Shown here: positions 28,676 through 36,932 of the stretch, one piece after another | How the letters are laid out: each line of letters begins with the position of its first letter | Position numbering within the stretch: the first letter of the stretch is position 1 | Assembly (NCBI GenBank): GCA_016882525.1 | Contig: VGPU01000017.1 | Span: 1-42,419, forward strand | Length of the DNA: 42,419 nucleotides | Source of the DNA: Cyanobacteria bacterium M_surface_10_m2_119 | GTDB lineage: Bacteria > Cyanobacteriota > Cyanobacteriia > PCC-6307 > Cyanobiaceae | Direction of reading: 5' to 3' | Notes under the pieces: generated by a model | Database searches by the model: none | What the model was told of the DNA's origin: nothing | The model's input: only the letters and a program-made list of their open reading frames with translations | Made by a program: the position numbers and the translations under genes

Positions 28676-29857
28676 ATGAAGGCGATGATCCTGGCGGCCG
28701 GCAAGGGCACCCGGGTGCGGCCGATCACGCACACCATTCCCAAGCCGATGATCCCCATCCTGCAGAAGCCCGTGATGGAGTTTCTGCTGGAACTGCTGCG
28801 GGAGCACGGCTTCACGGAAATCATGGTGAATGTCTCCCACCTTGCGGAGGAGATCGAGAACTATTTCCGCGACGGCCAGCGCTTCGGCGTGGAGATCGCC
28901 TACAGCTTCGAGGGCCGGATTGAGGACGGCGAGCTGATCGGGGATGCGCTGGGATCAGCCGGGGGCCTGAAGAAGATCCAGAGTTTTCAACCCTTCTTCG
29001 ACGACACGTTTGTGGTGTTGTGCGGCGATGCGCTGATCGATCTGGATCTCACCGAAGCGGTGCGCCGCCACCGCGAGAAGGGGGCCCTGGCCAGCCTGAT
29101 CACCAAACGGGTGCCGAAAGACCAGGTGAGCAGCTACGGCGTGGTGGTGACCGACGCCGATGGACGGGTGCGCTCCTTCCAGGAGAAGCCGGCCGTGGAG
29201 GAAGCGGCCAGCGACATGATCAACACGGGCATCTACATCTTCGAGCCCGAGGTGCTCGACTATGTGCCGGCCGGAGTTCCCTTCGACATCGGCTCCGATC
29301 TCTTCCCGAAGCTGGTCGCTGCCGGGGCGCCGTTCTACGCCCTGCCGATGGAATTCGAGTGGGTCGACATCGGCAAGGTTCCCGACTACTGGCAGGCCAT
29401 CCGCAGCGTGCTGCAGGGCCAGGTGCGCCAGGTGCAGATTCCGGGCAAGCAAGTGCACCCTGGCATCTACACGGGCCTGAACGTGGCCGCCAACTGGGAT
29501 CGCATCAAGGTGCAGGGCCCCGTGTATGTGGGCGGGATGACCCGCATTGAGGATGGCGCCAGGATCATCGGACCGGCCATGATCGGCCCGAGCTGTCACA
29601 TCTGCGAGAACGCCACGATCGACAACTCGATCATCTTCGACTATTCGCGCATTGGCCCCGGCGTGCGCCTGGTGGAGAAGCTGGTGTTCGGCCGCTACTG
29701 CGTCGACCGCAACGGCGACCATTTCGACCTGCAGGAAGCGGCACTCGACTGGCTGATCACCGATGCCCGCCGCCAGGACGTGGTGGAGCCCTCACCCCAG
29801 CAAAAGGCCCTGGCCGAGCTGCTCGGCAGCGATCTGGCCCTCAGCCAACCGGGCTGA
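28676..29857 (+). CDS. Sugar nucleotidyltransferase with hexapeptide-repeat tail
   Basis: A 393-residue NDP-sugar pyrophosphorylase. The catalytic N-terminal domain starts MKAMILAAGKGTRVRPITHTIPKPMIPI, with VVLCGDALIDLDL and FQEKPAVEEAASDMINTGIYIFE; the last third (GPVYVGGMTRIEDGARIIGPAMIGPSCHICENATIDNSIIF) is a left-handed beta-helix. Such proteins are annotated as mannose-1-phosphate guanylyl- or glucose-1-phosphate transferases; the exact sugar cannot be read from sequence. A -10-like TAGGCT lies at 28640-28645. Its end overlaps metF by 17 bases, with the stops inside a 10-base-pair hairpin. Confidence 0.88.
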   Translation: MKAMILAAGKGTRVRPITHTIPKPMIPILQKPVMEFLLELLREHGFTEIMVNVSHLAEEIENYFRDGQRFGVEIAYSFEGRIEDGELIGDALGSAGGLKKIQSFQPFFDDTFVVLCGDALIDLDLTEAVRRHREKGALASLITKRVPKDQVSSYGVVVTDADGRVRSFQEKPAVEEAASDMINTGIYIFEPEVLDYVPAGVPFDIGSDLFPKLVAAGAPFYALPMEFEWVDIGKVPDYWQAIRSVLQGQVRQVQIPGKQVHPGIYTGLNVAANWDRIKVQGPVYVGGMTRIEDGARIIGPAMIGPSCHICENATIDNSIIFDYSRIGPGVRLVEKLVFGRYCVDRNGDHFDLQEAALDWLITDARRQDVVEPSPQQKALAELLGSDLALSQPG

Positions 29858-29861
29858 GGGC
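29837..29861. terminator. Strong hairpin at the overlapping ends of the nucleotidyltransferase and metF genes
   Basis: GCCCTCAGCC (29837-29846) and GGCTGAGGGC (29852-29861) are exact reverse complements with a 5-base loop AACCG. The two TGA stops (29855-29857 on plus; 29843-29841 on minus) lie symmetrically in the arms. The stem is GC-rich but has no T-run, so it could end or protect transcripts from both sides. Confidence 0.5.
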
Positions 29862-30767
29862 GGCGGCCTGCAGGCCAGCCCGCTCCAGGATCAGGGGGAT
29901 CCGCTCTTCCGCCTTGATCGCCATCAGGTGCACGCCCTGGGCAATGCCGGCATAGCAGGCCGCCTGCTCGGCGGCGATCGCCACCCCCTCGGCCGCCGGA
30001 TCCTCAGCGGCGGCCAGACGATCGATCAGGCTCTGGGGAATGTTGGCCCCCGGCACCACCCGGTTGATGAAGGCGGCATTGCGGGCGGATTTGAGCAAAA
30101 ACACCCCCGCCAGCACCGGCAGGCCAAGGGGCGCGGCAATCTCCTCCACGAACCGGCGCAGGGCATCGGCGTCGCTCACCATCTGGGTCTGCAGAAAGCG
30201 GGCGCCGGCCGCCTGCTTGCGCCGCACCCGCGCCTTCAGGCCACTCCAGCTGGGTGACTGGGGATCGGCGGCTGCCCCGGCAAAGAAGGCCGTGCCGCCA
30301 TCGGCCAGCTCGCCGGCCACGGGATCGCGGCCGGCATTGAGGGCCTGCACGAGCTGCAGCAGGCGCACCGACTCCAGCTCGTTCACCGGGCGGGCATCGG
30401 GCTGGTCACCCGCCCGCACGGGGTCGCCGGTGAGGCACAACAGGTTGCGCAGGCCGAGGGCATGGGCGCCCAGCAAATCGGCCTGGAGGGCAATGCGATT
30501 GCGGTCGCGGCAGGCAAGCTGCAGCACCGGCTCCAGCCCCTCATCGCGCAGCAGGCGGCACATCGCCACGCTGCTCATCCGCATCACGGCCCGGCTGCCG
30601 TCGGTGACGTTGATCGCATGCACCCAGCCCCTCAGGCTGCGGGCCGCCTCCAGGGTGCGGGCCGGATTGCCCCCCCGGGGTGGCGTCACCTCCGCGGTGA
30701 TGGCCGTTCGACCGCTGGCCAGAGCCTGTTGAAGCAGCAAGCCATCCCTCCTGCGCCGCCCCATCAT
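29841..30767 (-). CDS. metF: Methylenetetrahydrofolate reductase
   Basis: A 308-residue flavoenzyme that makes 5-methyl-THF for methionine synthesis. It shows AITAEVTPPRGGNPARTLEAA, VHAINVTDGSRAVMRMSS, GLEPVLQLACRDRNRIALQADLLGAHALGLRNLLCLTGDPV, GARFLQTQMVSD and LPVLAGVFLLKSARNAAFINRVVPGA. The start is ATG 30767 or the adjacent ATG 30764; both lie inside a 7-base-pair inverted repeat. It is divergent from pedR with a 53-base gap. Confidence 0.92.
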   Translation of the reverse strand: MMGRRRRDGLLLQQALASGRTAITAEVTPPRGGNPARTLEAARSLRGWVHAINVTDGSRAVMRMSSVAMCRLLRDEGLEPVLQLACRDRNRIALQADLLGAHALGLRNLLCLTGDPVRAGDQPDARPVNELESVRLLQLVQALNAGRDPVAGELADGGTAFFAGAAADPQSPSWSGLKARVRRKQAAGARFLQTQMVSDADALRRFVEEIAAPLGLPVLAGVFLLKSARNAAFINRVVPGANIPQSLIDRLAAAEDPAAEGVAIAAEQAACYAGIAQGVHLMAIKAEERIPLILERAGLQAAALSPVG

Positions 30768-30776
30768 GCATGGGGC
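30758..30776 (-). promoter_or_regulatory. Inverted repeat over the metF start codon
   Basis: On the metF strand GCCCCAT-GCATG-ATGGGGC is a perfect 7-base-pair stem with a 5-base loop. The two adjacent candidate ATG codons fall at the loop edge and in the 3' arm. If transcribed, it would hide the start codon. A TTTAGG -10-like sequence 12 bases upstream would give a leader only about a dozen bases long. Confidence 0.4.
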
Positions 30777-30787
30777 TCCAGCCTGCC

Positions 30788-30793
30788 TAAAGT
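30788..30793 (+). promoter_or_regulatory. Possible -10 element before pedR
   Basis: TAAAGT in the context GCCTAAAGTG begins 33 bases before the pedR ATG. A purine-rich ribosome-binding-like GGGGAG lies at about 30803-30808. The same bases read on the other strand (TTTAGG) may serve metF, so the divergent promoters probably overlap. Confidence 0.35.
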
Positions 30794-30820
30794 GCCGGAT
30801 CAGGGGAGACCTGAGCAGGC

Positions 30821-31114
30821 ATGAACCAGCAGGATCCGCTTCCCCGAAGCCAGCCGGCCCGCGAGCGGGACCTCTCCGAGCGGGAGCTGGAAATCATCGG
30901 TCTGGTGGCCGAGGGCCTCACCAACCAGGAAATCGCCGCGACGCTCACGATCAGCAAGCGCACCGTGGACAACCACGTGAGCAACATCTTCACCAAGACC
31001 GGCGCCAAGAATCGGGTCGCGCTGCTCAACTGGGCCATGGATCACGGCAAGATCTGCCGGGACGGCTTCAATTGCTGCTCTCTGGACGCACCGCGCAGCG
31101 ACCGGCCAGATTGA
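30821..31114 (+). CDS. pedR: PedR-like LuxR-type small DNA-binding regulator
   Basis: A 97-residue protein that is essentially a LuxR helix-turn-helix: LSERELEIIGLVAEGLTNQEIAATLTISKRTVDNHVSNIFTKTGAKNRVALLNWAMDHGKIC, ending FNCCSLD. The size, lack of a receiver domain and the Cys-containing tail match PedR, a redox-responsive regulator linked to photosynthetic electron transport and thioredoxin in Synechocystis. Three Cys lie near the end and could be the redox switch; that is inference. Its last 47 bases overlap a minus-strand small gene. Confidence 0.85.
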   Translation: MNQQDPLPRSQPARERDLSERELEIIGLVAEGLTNQEIAATLTISKRTVDNHVSNIFTKTGAKNRVALLNWAMDHGKICRDGFNCCSLDAPRSDRPD

Positions 31115-31241
31115 TCAGGGCCAGGGATTCCAGGCTGTAACCGGAGCGATCCAGGCCGAAGAGTTCGGCATAGGCCAGGCAGTCATCGCTGTCCCGCCCG
31201 GCAAAACGGAGCACGCCCTGATCGTCATAGAGGCCGGTCAC
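31068..31241 (-). CDS. 57-residue small protein of unknown function
   Basis: Too short for usual ORF cut-offs. It starts at GTG and reads VTGLYDDQGVLRFAGRD, then DDCLAYAELFGLDRSGYSLE, ending in VRPESSN. Third codon positions are strongly GC-rich, like neighbouring genes. It is 45 bases after the CYTH gene on the same strand, with a TAAAGT -10-like hexamer (31289-31284) and an inverted repeat in between. The 3' end overlaps pedR by 47 bases. No domain is recognised; two Cys are present. Confidence 0.6.
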   Translation of the reverse strand: MTGLYDDQGVLRFAGRDSDDCLAYAELFGLDRSGYSLESLALINLAGRCAVRPESSN

Positions 31242-31267
31242 AGCAGCTGGGCAGAGCGGATCTGCAG

Positions 31268-31288
31268 AAAGTCTTCGGATTTGACTTT
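31268..31288. promoter_or_regulatory. Inverted repeat before the 57-residue gene
   Basis: AAAGTC (31268-31273) and GACTTT (31283-31288) are reverse complements 9 bases apart, overlapping the CYTH stop codon and a TAAAGT -10-like hexamer on the minus strand. It could be an operator or a weak terminator. Confidence 0.35.
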
Positions 31289-31853
31289 AGGCCCAGGCCT
31301 GCAGCACCTCCAGCAGTGGATCCCGCTGCTCCGGCGACCAGGTGCTGAAGGGGCAGCCGGCCAGGGCCGCATTGCTGAATGCGTGCTGGCCCGTGAGTTC
31401 CTGGGCGCACCAGGCAGGCACCGTCAGGGCCTGATCAGCACTGGTGAGTTCCACTTCGGCCACCACCAGGGGCGCATTGGAGCCGGCAAACACATCCACC
31501 ACCCAGTCGCCACCGGGTAGAGCCAGGCCATGGCGGATCTTGCTCAGCTGCAGCGCGGTGAGTGCCAGCAGAGCTTCGGCATCCGCAAGGGGGATGGGGT
31601 ACTCGAACTCCTGACGCACAAGACCCTCCGGCACCCCCTGGAAGGCCGGAGCCGGGGCCTTGAGGGTGAGCCAGGCCTGGGCTGCTGCGGCTGCGCAGTC
31701 CCCCGAAGTGATCGGGCGACTGGTGCGCACCCGCAGGGTGAAGCCATCGGCCTGGCGGCTGAGGTAGCCCTGCTGCAACTGGCGGCTCCAACGCACCTGC
31801 TCGCGCCATTGGGGGCCACCCACGAGGAACCGCCGCTCAATCTCCAGTCCCAC
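31287..31853 (-). CDS. CYTH-domain protein (triphosphate tunnel metalloenzyme)
   Basis: A 188-residue protein beginning (GTG) MGLEIERRFLVGG, with the ExExK-like EIERRF motif, LRVRTSRPI, WLTLKAP, EFEYPIPLADAEAL, KIRHGLAL, WVVDVF and VVAEVELTS, the ordered strands of the CYTH tunnel fold. Members act on triphosphates (inorganic triphosphatase or adenylate cyclase); I cannot choose. It follows nadK by 18 bases and ends the gltA-ndh-nadK run. Confidence 0.88.
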   Translation of the reverse strand: MGLEIERRFLVGGPQWREQVRWSRQLQQGYLSRQADGFTLRVRTSRPITSGDCAAAAAQAWLTLKAPAPAFQGVPEGLVRQEFEYPIPLADAEALLALTALQLSKIRHGLALPGGDWVVDVFAGSNAPLVVAEVELTSADQALTVPAWCAQELTGQHAFSNAALAGCPFSTWSPEQRDPLLEVLQAWA

Positions 31854-31871
31854 AGGCTTCGGCGTCGCTCC

Positions 31872-32825
31872 TTAATTGTGGGATGGCTCCGCCGCCACCA
31901 GACTGCCCGCCCAGTGGAGCTTGTGGGTGAGGGTGCGGTAATAGGAGGGACTCTGCTCCAGGAGCACCATCAGGGCCCCGTGGCGGCTTCGCTGCACCAC
32001 CGCCCGATCGCCGGGTTCCAGGCTGGTGGCCTGAACGCCGTCCTGCCAGAGCCGCACCCGACGGCTCGATTCCCCAAGCGGCCACACGCACAGCCGGGCC
32101 CGGGGCGGCACCACCACCGCCCGGCTGGAGAGGCTCATCGGACAGATCGGATTCACCACGATCCCCTCCAACCCTGGATGCAGGATCGGCCCCCCGGCCG
32201 CCATCGCGTAGCCGGTGGAGCCCGTGGGGGTGGCGATGATCAGGCCATCGCCGCGGTACTGATCAACCACTTCGCCATCGATCTCCAGCTCCAGCACGCA
32301 GGTGGAGGAGAGCTCATCAAGGCCGGGGCGGAAGTAGAAGTCATTGAGGGCCAGGTGGGGGGCCTCCGTACCGCCGCCGCCGACCCCATCCCCCCGGTCG
32401 ATGTGGGCTTCAAGCATCATCCGGCGCTCCAGGGCGAAGCGGTCATCGCGCAGACGCTGCCAGAGGTCGAGGGCGTCGGACTCTGCCGATGCCGCGGCGG
32501 TGTCGCCAGCCAGCCGCAACAGACGGCGGTCATGGGTGAGAAAGCCCAGATGGCCGCCCACGTTGAAACAGAGAATCGGCACCCCGAGGGGACCCAGGTG
32601 GCGGGCTGCTCCCAGCACGGTGCCATCGCCGCCCAGCACCAGGGCGAGATCGGGAAGCTGGGCCTCACTGGCCAACAGGCCCGGATAGGGATCACGGGCC
32701 AGGCCGCTGCTGGCGGTGACCACGGCCACCCCCTGGCCGCGCAGGTCAGCGGCACAGCGGCGGACCTGGCGCTGGGCGGCCTGACTGCCGGCGCGTGCAA
32801 TCAGCCAGACCCGCTCCAGGCGCAT
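31872..32825 (-). CDS. nadK: NAD kinase
   Basis: A 317-residue enzyme that phosphorylates NAD to NADP. It has the family motif [16 protein letters not shown], the segment [19 protein letters not shown], and [20 protein letters not shown]. The ATG at 32825 is 8 bases after ndhE, so they are cotranscribed. Cyanobacteria usually carry two NAD kinases; this is the copy linked to NDH-1 genes. Confidence 0.93.
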
Positions 32826-32833
32826 GGCAAGGG

Positions 32834-33187
32834 CTACCAGCGCAGCAGGTTGAAGCGCTCCATATCGACCGTCTCCCGGTTGCGGTAAAGGGACAGAAGA
32901 ATGGCCAGACCGACCGCCGCCTCAGCGGCCGCCACGGTGATCACGAAGATGGCGAAGACCTGGCCCCTGATCAGCTGGCCATCCAGGTAGCTGGAGAAGG
33001 CCATCAGGTTGATGTTCACGGCATTGAGCATCAGCTCGATGCTCATCAGCACCCGCACGGCATTGCGGCTGTTGATCAGGCCCCACACACCGGTGCAGAA
33101 CAGCAGTGCCGCCACCACCAGATAGGCCTGCAGGGGCACGCCATCGGCGAGGGACAGGCTGGTGACGTCGATCGGGGTGGAATCCAT
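32834..33187 (-). CDS. ndhE: NAD(P)H-quinone oxidoreductase subunit 4L (NdhE)
   Basis: A 117-residue NuoK-type subunit with three helices: [42 protein letters not shown] (with the conserved Glu in the second helix) and [25 protein letters not shown] (Glu in the third). It forms part of the NDH-1 membrane arm in thylakoids. ATG 33187. It lies between ndhG (46 bases upstream) and nadK. Confidence 0.95.
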
Positions 33188-33233
33188 CGGACTGGAATTC
33201 GACGGGGGAAGGTCTGGGGCGGTGGGGCTGGGC

Positions 33234-33836
33234 TCAGGAGGCGCTCTTGTCGAGCAGAAGCGGGGTGCGGGCCTTCTCGATCAGGGCCTGATCGACCTCC
33301 TCCCCGGTGGCGATGTCGCGGCTGAACACATCGCGGCGCGCGAGCACGATGGCACCGATCATCGCCATCAGCAGCAGAACGGAGGCCAGTTCGAAGGGGA
33401 GCAGGTAGTCGGAGAACAGGTGTTCGCCGATGCGAATGGTGGCTTCCTCCCCCACGGGCAAGGGGCCGGGCAGGGCCCAGGGAGTTGTGAGGGCCACCCG
33501 GAGCAGCAGGGCGAACAGGCCGCCGCACACCAGGCCTGAAAGCAGGCGGCGCACCGCCAGGCCGGGAATGGCGGAGAGATCTTCGCGCTTGTTCACGAGC
33601 ATGATCGCGAACAGGATCAGCACGTTCACCGCCCCGACGTACACCAGCACCTGGGCAGCGGCGACAAAGCTGGCATTCAGCAGCAGGTAGAGACCGGCCA
33701 CCGAGAGGAAGACCCCGCCGAGCAGGAAGGCGGAGTAGACGATGTTGGGCAGCAGCACCACTCCGAGGGCCCCCAGCACGACGGTGGAGGCGAGCACCGC
33801 GAAGCAGATCAGCTGGGTGGTGGTGGCGATCGTCAT
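33234..33836 (-). CDS. ndhG: NAD(P)H-quinone oxidoreductase subunit 6 (NdhG)
   Basis: A 200-residue NuoJ-type subunit with five helices. Core text: [66 protein letters not shown], then the last helix [20 protein letters not shown]. The start ATG at 33836 overlaps the ndhI stop (TGATG), showing translational coupling. Confidence 0.95.
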
Positions 33837-34462
33837 CAGGCCTTCTCCTTGGAGGTGGCAGCGGCCGCTGCGGGCTCGGTCTTGGGCAGGGTCTCGAGCA
33901 CCTGCTCGGGCAGTCTGCCCACCCGGGGGGCGGTATCGGGCACCCCATGGGGATCCATCTCGCCCTTGGGCAGGTAGGCCAGTTCCCGCAGGGCAAACAC
34001 GGCTGGATCGCTGGTGACGCTGGTGGGCAAACGGCCGAGGGCGATGTTGTCGTAGTTGAGGCTGTGACGATCGAAGGCCGCCAGCTCGTATTCCTCGGTC
34101 ATCGACAGGCAGTTGGTGGGGCAGTACTCCACGCAGTTGCCACAGAAGATGCACACCCCGAAGTCAATCGAGTAGTTGCGCAGCTCCTTTTTCTTGGTGG
34201 CCTTGTTCATCACCCAATCCACCACCGGCAGGTTGATCGGGCACACGCGCACGCACACCTCGCAGGCGATGCACTTGTCGAACTCGTAGTGGATGCGGCC
34301 GCGGTAGCGCTCCGAGGGGATCAGCTTCTCGTAGGGGTACTGCACCGTGACCGGCCGGCGGCGCAGGTGGTCGAAGGTCACCGCCAGACCCTGGGTCATG
34401 TAGTTGGCTGCACCCACCGCATCACGGGTGTAGTCGCCGACTTTCTTGAGGAACCCGAACAT
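33836..34462 (-). CDS. ndhI: NAD(P)H-quinone oxidoreductase subunit I (2x 4Fe-4S)
   Basis: A 208-residue iron-sulfur subunit that carries electrons through the peripheral arm. Two ferredoxin-type motifs are intact: [16 protein letters not shown] and [17 protein letters not shown]. The N-terminus [47 protein letters not shown] is typical. The C-terminal tail is Ala/Lys-rich. It follows ndhA after a 91-base gap. Confidence 0.96.
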
Positions 34463-34553
34463 CAGCCAGGAAGCAGGGGGCGAGGAACCAGGAGCGAAGC
34501 AGACCGGGGATGGCCGGCACCATGATGGCCCGGCCGGCGCGGCAGCTGGGGAA
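34463..34553 (-). other. ndhA-ndhI spacer
   Basis: A 91-base gap inside the ndh operon. It contains purine-rich text GCGAGGAACCAGGAGCGAAG (34479-34498) resembling short GGAAC/GAGCGAAG stretches near radA and inside the Anbu gene. No gene or terminator is seen. Confidence 0.3.
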
Positions 34554-35714
34554 TCAACCGCCGAAGAAGGCGGGGAAGGCCAGCTTGAGACCGGCGGTCA
34601 CCAGCAAATTCACCAGGGCGATGGGCAGCAGGAACTTCCAGCCCAGGTCGAGCAGCTGATCAATCCGCACCCGCGGCGTGGTCCAGCGCAGCAGGATCGC
34701 CAGGAACACCAGCAGGTAGGCCTTGAGCACGGTCATCACGATGCCCACCGAGGCGGTGATCACCTGGACCACCGGCGCATCGACGGGCTGACCCAGCCAA
34801 CCGGCCAGCCATTCCACCGGCAGGGGGAAACCCCAGCCGCCCAGATACAGCACCGACACCAGCAGGGCCGAGAGCACCAGGTTGATGTAGCTGCCCAGGT
34901 AGAAGAGGGCGAACTTCATGCCGGAGTACTCGGTCTGGTAGCCGGCGACCAGCTCCTCTTCCGCTTCGGGAAGGTCGAAGGGCAGGCGCTCGCACTCGGC
35001 CAGGGCGCAGATCCAGAAGATCACGAAGCCCACCGGCTGGCGCCAGATGTTCCAGCTGAGGATGCCGGCGCCGGTCTGCTGGTCGACGATGTCGACGGTG
35101 CTGAGGGAGTTGCTCATCATCACCACCGCCAGCACCGCCAGGGCCAGGGGGATCTCGTAGCTGATCGACTGGGCCGCCGCCCTCAGGCCACCCAGCAGCG
35201 AATACTTGTTGTTGGAGGCGTAGCCGCTCATCAGCAGGCCGATGGGCTGGATGCTGCTGAGGGAGATCCACAGGAAGATCCCCACCCCCACGTTGCTGAT
35301 CAGCAGGTGCTGGCCGAAGGGCACCACCAGCCAGCTGAGGATCACCGGGATCAGCACCAGCACCGGGCCGAGGGTGAACAGCAGGCCATCGGCTCGGGCC
35401 GGGATGATGTCTTCCTTGAACACCAGCTTCATGCCGTCGGCGATCGGCTGGAGCACCCCCAGGGCGCCGGCGTATTCCGGACCGATGCGCTGCTGCACGG
35501 CGGCGGAGATCTTGCGCTCCAGCCACACGTTCACCAGCACGCCCACCACGGCGGCAACCAGCACCAGCACCATCGGCAGGGGCAACCAGAGCAGGTGGGC
35601 GGCACCAGCGCTCAGCCCCAGCCCCTGCAGGGCTGTTTCAAAGGAGGCCTGGAGGTCCAGGCCCGCGGCTGCATCCAGGCCGGGGGTGGTTCCCGGAGCC
35701 GTGGTGCTCAGCAT
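34554..35714 (-). CDS. ndhA: NAD(P)H-quinone oxidoreductase subunit 1 (NdhA)
   Basis: A 386-residue NuoH-type subunit that forms the quinone site at the arm junction. Recognised text: [43 protein letters not shown], then [32 protein letters not shown], and [37 protein letters not shown]. The ATG at 35714 lies 24 bases after gltA. Secure. Confidence 0.96.
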
Positions 35715-35738
35715 GACGGCAGCGCAGATGGGGGCAAC

Positions 35739-36932
35739 TTAGCGGTCCTGCAGGGACAGCCACTCACGGGGAGCTGAACCGGTGTACAGCTGGGAGGGCC
35801 GGAAGATCCGGTTGGCGCCCAGCTGCTCCTTCCAGTGGGCCAGCCAGCCAGCGGTGCGGGCGATCGCAAAGATCGGCGTGAACAGGTCGCGGGGGATGCC
35901 CAGCTTGCGGTACACGAGCCCGGAGTAGAAGTCGACGTTGGGATAGATGCCCTTGGGCCCCAGGCGCTGGGCCGCGGCCTCCTCGAGCCGGCGGGCCAGG
36001 TCGTACATCGGGTCGTGGCCGAAGCGGTCGAAGAGCTGCTCCGCGAGCCCCTGAAGAATCACCGCCCGGGGGTCCTTGACCTTGTACTCCCGGTGGCCGA
36101 AGCCCATGATCTTCTGCTTCTCGGCGATGGCCCGATCGAGCCAGGGCTCCACCTGGTCCTCGCTGCCGATCGTCTCCAGCATGGCCAGCACATCCTCGTT
36201 GGCCCCGCCGTGCAACGGACCGGCCAGGGTGCCCACCGCCGAGGCCACCACCGCGTAGGGATCGGTGAGGGTGCTGGCGGTGACGCGGGCGCTGAAGGTG
36301 CTGGCGTTGAGGCTGTGCTCGGCGTGCAGGATCAGGCAGGCATCGAAGATGCGGGCGGCCAGGGGATCCGGCTCCCGCTCGGTGAGCATGTAGAGGAAGT
36401 TGGCGGCATAGGGCAGGTCGTCGCGGGGCTGGATCGGATCCTGTCCCTTCCGGATCAGCTGGAAGGCCGCCACCATCGTGGGGATCTTCGCCAGCAGGCG
36501 CACCACGGCCCCGTAGATGTATTCCGGGTTGTCGAGGGCGCGGCGCGAGTAGAAAAGTCCGAGGGAGGCGGCGCTGGCCTGCAGCGCGTCCATCGGATGC
36601 CCCTGGGAGGGGAAGCTTTTCATCATGTCGCGGATGCGGAAGCTCACCCGCCGGTGCATCTGCACCTCGTGCTCGAACTCCCGCAGCTGATCGGCGGTGG
36701 GGAGCTCGCCCCAGATCAGCAGGAAGGCCGTCTCCAGAAAGGTGCTGTTGGCCGCCAGGGTGGCGGCATTGAAACCGCGGTAGGTGAGATGGCCGCGCCG
36801 GCCATCGATATCGCAGATGGCCGACTGGGTGGCCGGCACCCCCTCCAGGCCAGGCCGGAAAGGTGGCGGTTCCTGGGCCGGGCCGCCTCCGGAGGGGGCC
36901 ATCGGAGTGCTGAGGGAGCCACTCACCGCCAT
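35739..36932 (-). CDS. gltA: Citrate synthase
   Basis: A 397-residue type-I-fold citrate synthase that forms citrate from oxaloacetate and acetyl-CoA. Catalytic segments: LHAEHSLNASTFSARV, GTLAGPLHGGANEDVL (His) and MGFGHREYKVKDPRAVIL, with the catalytic Asp region NVDFYSGLVYRKLG. The N-terminus has a Pro/Gly-rich leader before GLEGVPATQSAICDIDG. A -10-like TAGGTT lies at 36960-36955. It leads a run into ndhA-I-G-E, nadK and CYTH. Confidence 0.95.
   Translation of the reverse strand: MAVSGSLSTPMAPSGGGPAQEPPPFRPGLEGVPATQSAICDIDGRRGHLTYRGFNAATLAANSTFLETAFLLIWGELPTADQLREFEHEVQMHRRVSFRIRDMMKSFPSQGHPMDALQASAASLGLFYSRRALDNPEYIYGAVVRLLAKIPTMVAAFQLIRKGQDPIQPRDDLPYAANFLYMLTEREPDPLAARIFDACLILHAEHSLNASTFSARVTASTLTDPYAVVASAVGTLAGPLHGGANEDVLAMLETIGSEDQVEPWLDRAIAEKQKIMGFGHREYKVKDPRAVILQGLAEQLFDRFGHDPMYDLARRLEEAAAQRLGPKGIYPNVDFYSGLVYRKLGIPRDLFTPIFAIARTAGWLAHWKEQLGANRIFRPSQLYTGSAPREWLSLQDR

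Follow-up and report, generated by a model that had tools for sequence, protein, structure and literature searches.

Regulatory small proteins of cyanobacteria with which the one considered here can be compared include NirP1, NblD, AtpTheta and SliP4, whose partners were sought by co-immunoprecipitation (PMC10907346, available part). According to the same part of that source, the NirP1 gene had previously been unannotated, and Prochlorococcus and most marine Synechococcus are reported to lack NirP1, whereas the small protein family described below was found only in the family to which these belong. We set these proteins beside ours by description and not by sequence. Convergent overlapping gene pairs are a second point of comparison: in such pairs of compact bacterial genomes the 3′ ends are shared on opposite strands, as they are by our small gene and pedR. 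Unlike the usual pairs, however, the small gene has its stop and last residues fixed by the Phe-Asn-Cys-Cys of PedR, and a gene for a CYTH-domain protein can substitute for it at the junction. PedR itself (NF052366), the physical neighbour and overlap partner of the small gene, acts in Synechocystis as a thiol switch that is reduced by thioredoxin and controls chlorophyll genes and ndhD2 (PMC13421787, available part). None of our searches reported a similarity of the small protein to PedR, and pedR occurs with and without the small gene. In titles and the beginnings of abstracts on PedR, small proteins, overlapping genes and antisense RNA in picocyanobacteria and cyanobacteria, the small gene was not named.

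The small gene and its distribution

The window, by which we mean the whole analysed stretch of 42,419 nucleotides from a cyanobacterium of the Cyanobiaceae, carries at 31068..31241 on the minus strand an open frame of 57 residues with a GTG start and a TGA stop opposite the PedR Phe-Asn codons. The preliminary description had reported this frame, its position at the end of a gltA-ndh-nadK-CYTH run and its overlap with the Cys-containing tail of pedR, and all three were recovered. Going upstream on the same strand, the order is the CYTH-domain protein (31287..31853, separated by a 45-nt spacer), the NAD(+) kinase gene nadK (31872..32825), and then ndhE/nuoK, ndhG/nuoJ, ndhI, ndhA/nuoH and gltA (32834..36932). 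From the other side comes pedR (30821..31114, plus strand), encoding a LuxR-type redox regulator of 97 residues with the tail CRDGFNCCSLDAPRSDRPD, which passes the NCBIfam cut-off for PedR (136.3 bits against 120). The two genes share 47 bases tail to tail (31068..31114), including the PedR Cys-Cys codons. The third codon positions of the small frame are GC-rich, as had been noted: GC at the three positions is 0.69/0.48/0.72 for the entire frame and, with the overlap left out, 0.74/0.43/0.76, which is compatible with coding without proving it.

A single-sequence search of 99 genomes found the small gene in 47 of the 61 from the window's family and in none of the other 38. With a profile the gene was found in 281 of 400 family genomes; among the 251 good ones (completeness of 90% or more, contamination of 5% or less) 198 had a match and 53 had none. 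Among 388 genomes of the class, the profile gave no match outside the family at E<=1e-3, the best (E 0.0107) falling in a frame that stop codons interrupt. In a scan of named genomes 225 places were confirmed; the best 80 of them carry the labels Cyanobium, Synechococcus, Vulcanococcus, Prochlorococcus or unnamed cyanobacteria. Below, the first set denotes the 47 loci and the second set the best 80 of the 225 places, which are rich in Prochlorococcus; the two sets have genomes in common, and near-identical Prochlorococcus are numerous in the second. In the first set, nadK, CYTH, pedR and metF all surround the small gene in 42 of 47 loci, and two of the remaining five are cut by contig ends. 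On a midpoint-rooted tree of four proteins from 57 genomes (one short row dropped, 11 genomes without the gene sampled) the genomes that lack it lie scattered, which requires at least 9 changes, a pattern pointing to an ancestral small gene with repeated loss. Given these scattered absences and the 53 good genomes without a match, the small gene is dispensable.

Selection on the encoded protein is seen in the first 41 codons (31119..31241, minus strand), a core that lies wholly outside the pedR overlap. Here pN/pS, taken as ratios of uncorrected proportions in four groups of loci, was 0.34 (n=16), 0.21 (n=10), 0.11 (n=43) and 0.26 (n=18). In each group four of the other five frames had values above 1, and the frame whose third positions coincide gave 0.27–0.45. 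A frame changing at the neutral rate, the outcome that according to the preliminary description would speak against a gene, is thus not what we found. The alignment of 47 sequences has seven invariant columns, all N-terminal (L4, Y5, D6, G9, R12, C21 and Y24), within a core consensus MxGLYDxxGxLRFxGxDxxxCLAYAELFxL...SL, and the C-terminal tail is without conservation as protein. The start falls at one aligned position, where the first set has TTG 26 times, GTG 11, ATG 5, CTG 2 and another codon 3 times (n=47), and the second set, the best 80 of the 225 places, has ATG 50 times, GTG 20, TTG 8 and others twice. In 5 of these 127 rows the aligned codon is a non-start (TCG, ACC or CGG), so that the start must there be displaced by at least one codon. 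Shine-Dalgarno-like tetramers occur in 29 of 47 leaders against a background of 0.16; none was found in the window's own leader. Conservation and purifying selection together indicate that the frame at 31068..31241 is a real gene, far beyond chance, and selection also argues for its translation.

Predicted fold and role of the product

The window protein matched no family above cut-off in Pfam, NCBIfam or PHROGs, and a Pfam scan of the 47 members gave two families with one member each at E 0.06–0.09. A sequence search of the PDB returned no significant relative (one match at E 0.078). Foldseek gave no match at E<=0.001 and a best value of 1.3, which is weak evidence since the query was a model of modest confidence. 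A phage origin was considered and dropped; the one match (E 0.7) was unconvincing. Two AlphaFold2 runs agree on a beta-beta-alpha-beta arrangement (pLDDT 71.6 and 62.1), which we regard with modest confidence as the predicted fold; the low-confidence tail of the model is the unconserved C-terminal end dictated by pedR.

Taken together, the locus very probably holds a genuine picocyanobacterial small-protein gene that follows ndh-nadK-CYTH and runs toward pedR, where it would end in a passive junction, with an accessory role in redox or NAD(P) metabolism as the presumed function. The N-terminal 41 residues are selected as protein, and the tail within the overlap is dictated by pedR, whose Phe-Asn codons supply the stop. 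Expression would come in part from a promoter of the gene's own, at a direct-repeat element in the spacer that follows CYTH, and in part through transcripts of the ndh-nadK-CYTH operon that read on into the small gene. The product would be soluble, built on a beta-beta-alpha-beta core with a single invariant Cys, and would work through a bound partner, which is most likely an enzyme or complex belonging to the redox/NAD(P) cluster. It is the placement after ndh and nadK that suggests such a role; a relocated copy (G020) weakens the suggestion, and in one genome (L021) the gene lies away from CYTH and nadK too, which weakens its tie to the cluster. It seems rather unlikely, though worth considering, that the gene encodes a small picocyanobacterial regulator with an element-driven promoter, whose one-Cys protein fine-tunes the redox signalling of NAD(P)/NDH or of PedR and whose convergent end is 'parked' on the Phe-Asn stop. 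Prochlorococcus and marine Synechococcus count among the most abundant phototrophs, and their regulators are few. An unnamed protein under purifying selection that is present in most sampled genomes of the family, beside genes for NDH-1, NAD kinase and PedR, offers a defined target for gene knock-out and for tagging.

The junction with pedR

The frame had also been proposed to serve as both a protein and an antisense regulator. The protein half of this proposal is well supported by the family-wide occurrence and the pN/pS values given above; the antisense half is not supported, in view of missing overlaps, relocation of the gene and, in the 36 overlaps examined, constraint on pedR only. A dual-function locus, in which antisense RNA or transcriptional collision at the overlapping 3′ ends regulates pedR, is improbable in our view. 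It is true that the small gene overlaps pedR in 33 of the 42 first-set loci with a recognisable pedR nearby and in 54 of 74 such loci of the second set (best 80 of the 225 places), often by 38–56 nt in marine genomes, and that no terminator-like site was found between the two genes in the window. Collision of convergent transcripts has been proposed to be common in bacteria including cyanobacteria (PMC10349824, available part), and transcription may still run antisense across the end of pedR. However, the overlap is missing while the protein persists in 9 of the 42 (gaps of 10–107 nt; eight of these loci belong to the window's genus) and in 20 of the 74. Within the genus of the window, the two genes are separated by 10–106 nt in eight of 11 measurable loci and overlap only in the window, L011 and L014. 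Three genomes from three genera (G020, G036 and G043) do not have the small gene beside pedR at all. With these counts and three genomes without adjacency, an overlap conserved wherever the gene is conserved, as expected of cis-antisense regulation, was not observed.

The sequence of the shared DNA itself argues in the same direction. In 36 Prochlorococcus genomes with a common 38-nt overlap, the 14 variable columns fall on 11 third, 3 first and no second positions of pedR codons, and in the small-gene frame the same columns are 11 second, 3 first and no third positions. Variation thus follows the codon positions of pedR, which alone constrains the shared DNA in those 36 genomes. The stop of the small gene lies exactly opposite the PedR Phe-Asn codons in 30 of 42 loci of the first set and 41 of 74 of the second (best 80 of the 225 places). 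Because TT[TC]-AA[TC] reads in this antisense frame always as TAA or TGA, any gene entering pedR in this frame stops there, and because the last residue before this stop is Asn or Ser, the ends ...SN or ...NN recur. In four first-set loci PedR has Val in place of Phe (L004, L007, L009 and L013), and the small gene ends before pedR. Where the small gene is lacking, CYTH leads to pedR in nine of the 11 genomes checked (in the other two, L159 and L167, CYTH is not beside pedR), either after a gap (2–133 nt) or with an overlap (4, 41 and 41 nt). In two of them, L163 and L164 (at about 1480–1520 in the oriented loci), CYTH reaches 41 nt into pedR and takes the Phe-Asn stop, so nothing specific to an RNA of the small gene is kept. 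Since the PedR Phe-Asn codons supply the stop to a gene that runs into pedR, the overlap looks like a passive, compact tail-to-tail junction and not like an antisense switch. The locus presents a conserved protein motif on one strand that supplies stop codons to genes on the opposite strand, and such PedR-supplied stops are a caution against taking overlaps of this kind for antisense regulation.

We give similarly little credence to the idea that the small protein partners PedR, using its thiol-bearing chain to bind either PedR or the redox partner of PedR, and that the convergence of the genes reflects function. The one invariant Cys and the adjacency of the genes in most loci would fit, as would the thioredoxin-reduced thiol switch of PedR in Synechocystis (PMC13421787, available part); yet all 11 checked genomes without the small gene have kept pedR, and in G020, G036 and G043, which keep the small gene, pedR lies elsewhere, next to metF. 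That we are dealing with a spurious open frame opposite a GC-rich gene has a negligible probability: high-GC genomes do hold many long chance frames (61 of at least 40 aa in an 8-kb stretch), but family-wide conservation, a conserved start and purifying selection stand against it, and the pN/pS values refute it.

At the relocated copies, the convergent gene downstream of the small gene in G020, G036 and G043 is one that we take to encode a DegT-type aminotransferase. In L016, L017 and L021 a DegT-like aminotransferase frame takes the place of pedR as the convergent, overlapping neighbour of the small gene.

The spacer element and the leader

Returning to the reading of a genuine gene with a passive junction, the small gene probably has its own promoter, as suggested by a direct-repeat element just upstream that is clearest in marine relatives. 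There, in the spacer between CYTH and the small gene, the element has a period of 11 and the form CTTTA[G/T]ATT-NN-CTTTATATT, also CTTTA[G/T]ATT-NN-[C]TTTATATT; examples are L018, L038, L044, L113 and L149, and a fixed pattern matches 81 of 157 leaders, some of them redundant. Nine aligned leaders of the window's near relatives give the consensus CCTAGGAT...CGAAAGANTTTCTGAAG, which is possibly related to the marine element. The window's spacer (31254..31291, minus strand) aligns with this consensus and carries a degenerate form of it, the first part overlapping the CYTH stop. By eye the element is absent from the spacers of five loci without the small gene (at least 33 nt each, one inspected over 120 of its 133 nt); in four more such loci the spacer is 2 nt or none. 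The element might serve as promoter or operator.

The preliminary description had pointed to a −10-like hexamer and an inverted repeat in front of the frame. Both can be read in the sequence, but neither is better than chance in the window: the lone hexamer TAAAGT at the CYTH stop has 4 of 6 consensus positions, and a two-hexamer sigma-70 scan of 29500–32500 found no promoter; the 6-bp repeat AAAGTC/GACTTT is present, but its leader is no more stably folded than shuffled versions (z −0.25). For marine relatives only, a structured leader RNA is suggestive. Among 30 distinct leaders, selected because they have the element together with a TTG or GTG start, 12 have a stem of at least 6 pairs starting 19–25 nt after the element start, against a mean of 2.2 and a maximum of 8 in 300 shuffles; folding z-scores of 15 chosen leaders ranged from −2.7 to +0.5. 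Rfam gave no match in three loci. Hairpins sit at the expected beginning of the transcript in some marine leaders. In L038, L044, L045 and other marine leaders a hairpin directly follows the element, with stems that differ in a way that looks compensatory, and a second hairpin stands just before the Shine-Dalgarno site.

Whole-genome counts give a mixed picture of a possible wider regulon of the element. In 20 genomes the element was matched 20 times genome-wide against 3 for the reversed control, and 12 of these matches are by position the small gene's own sites, which leaves 8 against 3. A looser pattern gave 49 matches against 35 in 19 genomes; at least 14 of the 49 are the small gene's own, so that no surplus over the control is left. 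A broader form gave 19 against 15 in 14 genomes. RpaB, with its HLR1 repeat, was considered and rejected as the binder of the element; the HLR1 repeat has a period of 10 and the element one of 11. The marine element recurs near a gene for a high-light-inducible (hli)-like protein and near other small-protein genes; the copy before the hli-like gene may have arisen by chance and been kept by descent. In L205, L206, L241, L245, L263 and L269 a similar element ends 11–12 nt before the ATG of a short gene, which presumably encodes this hli-like protein.
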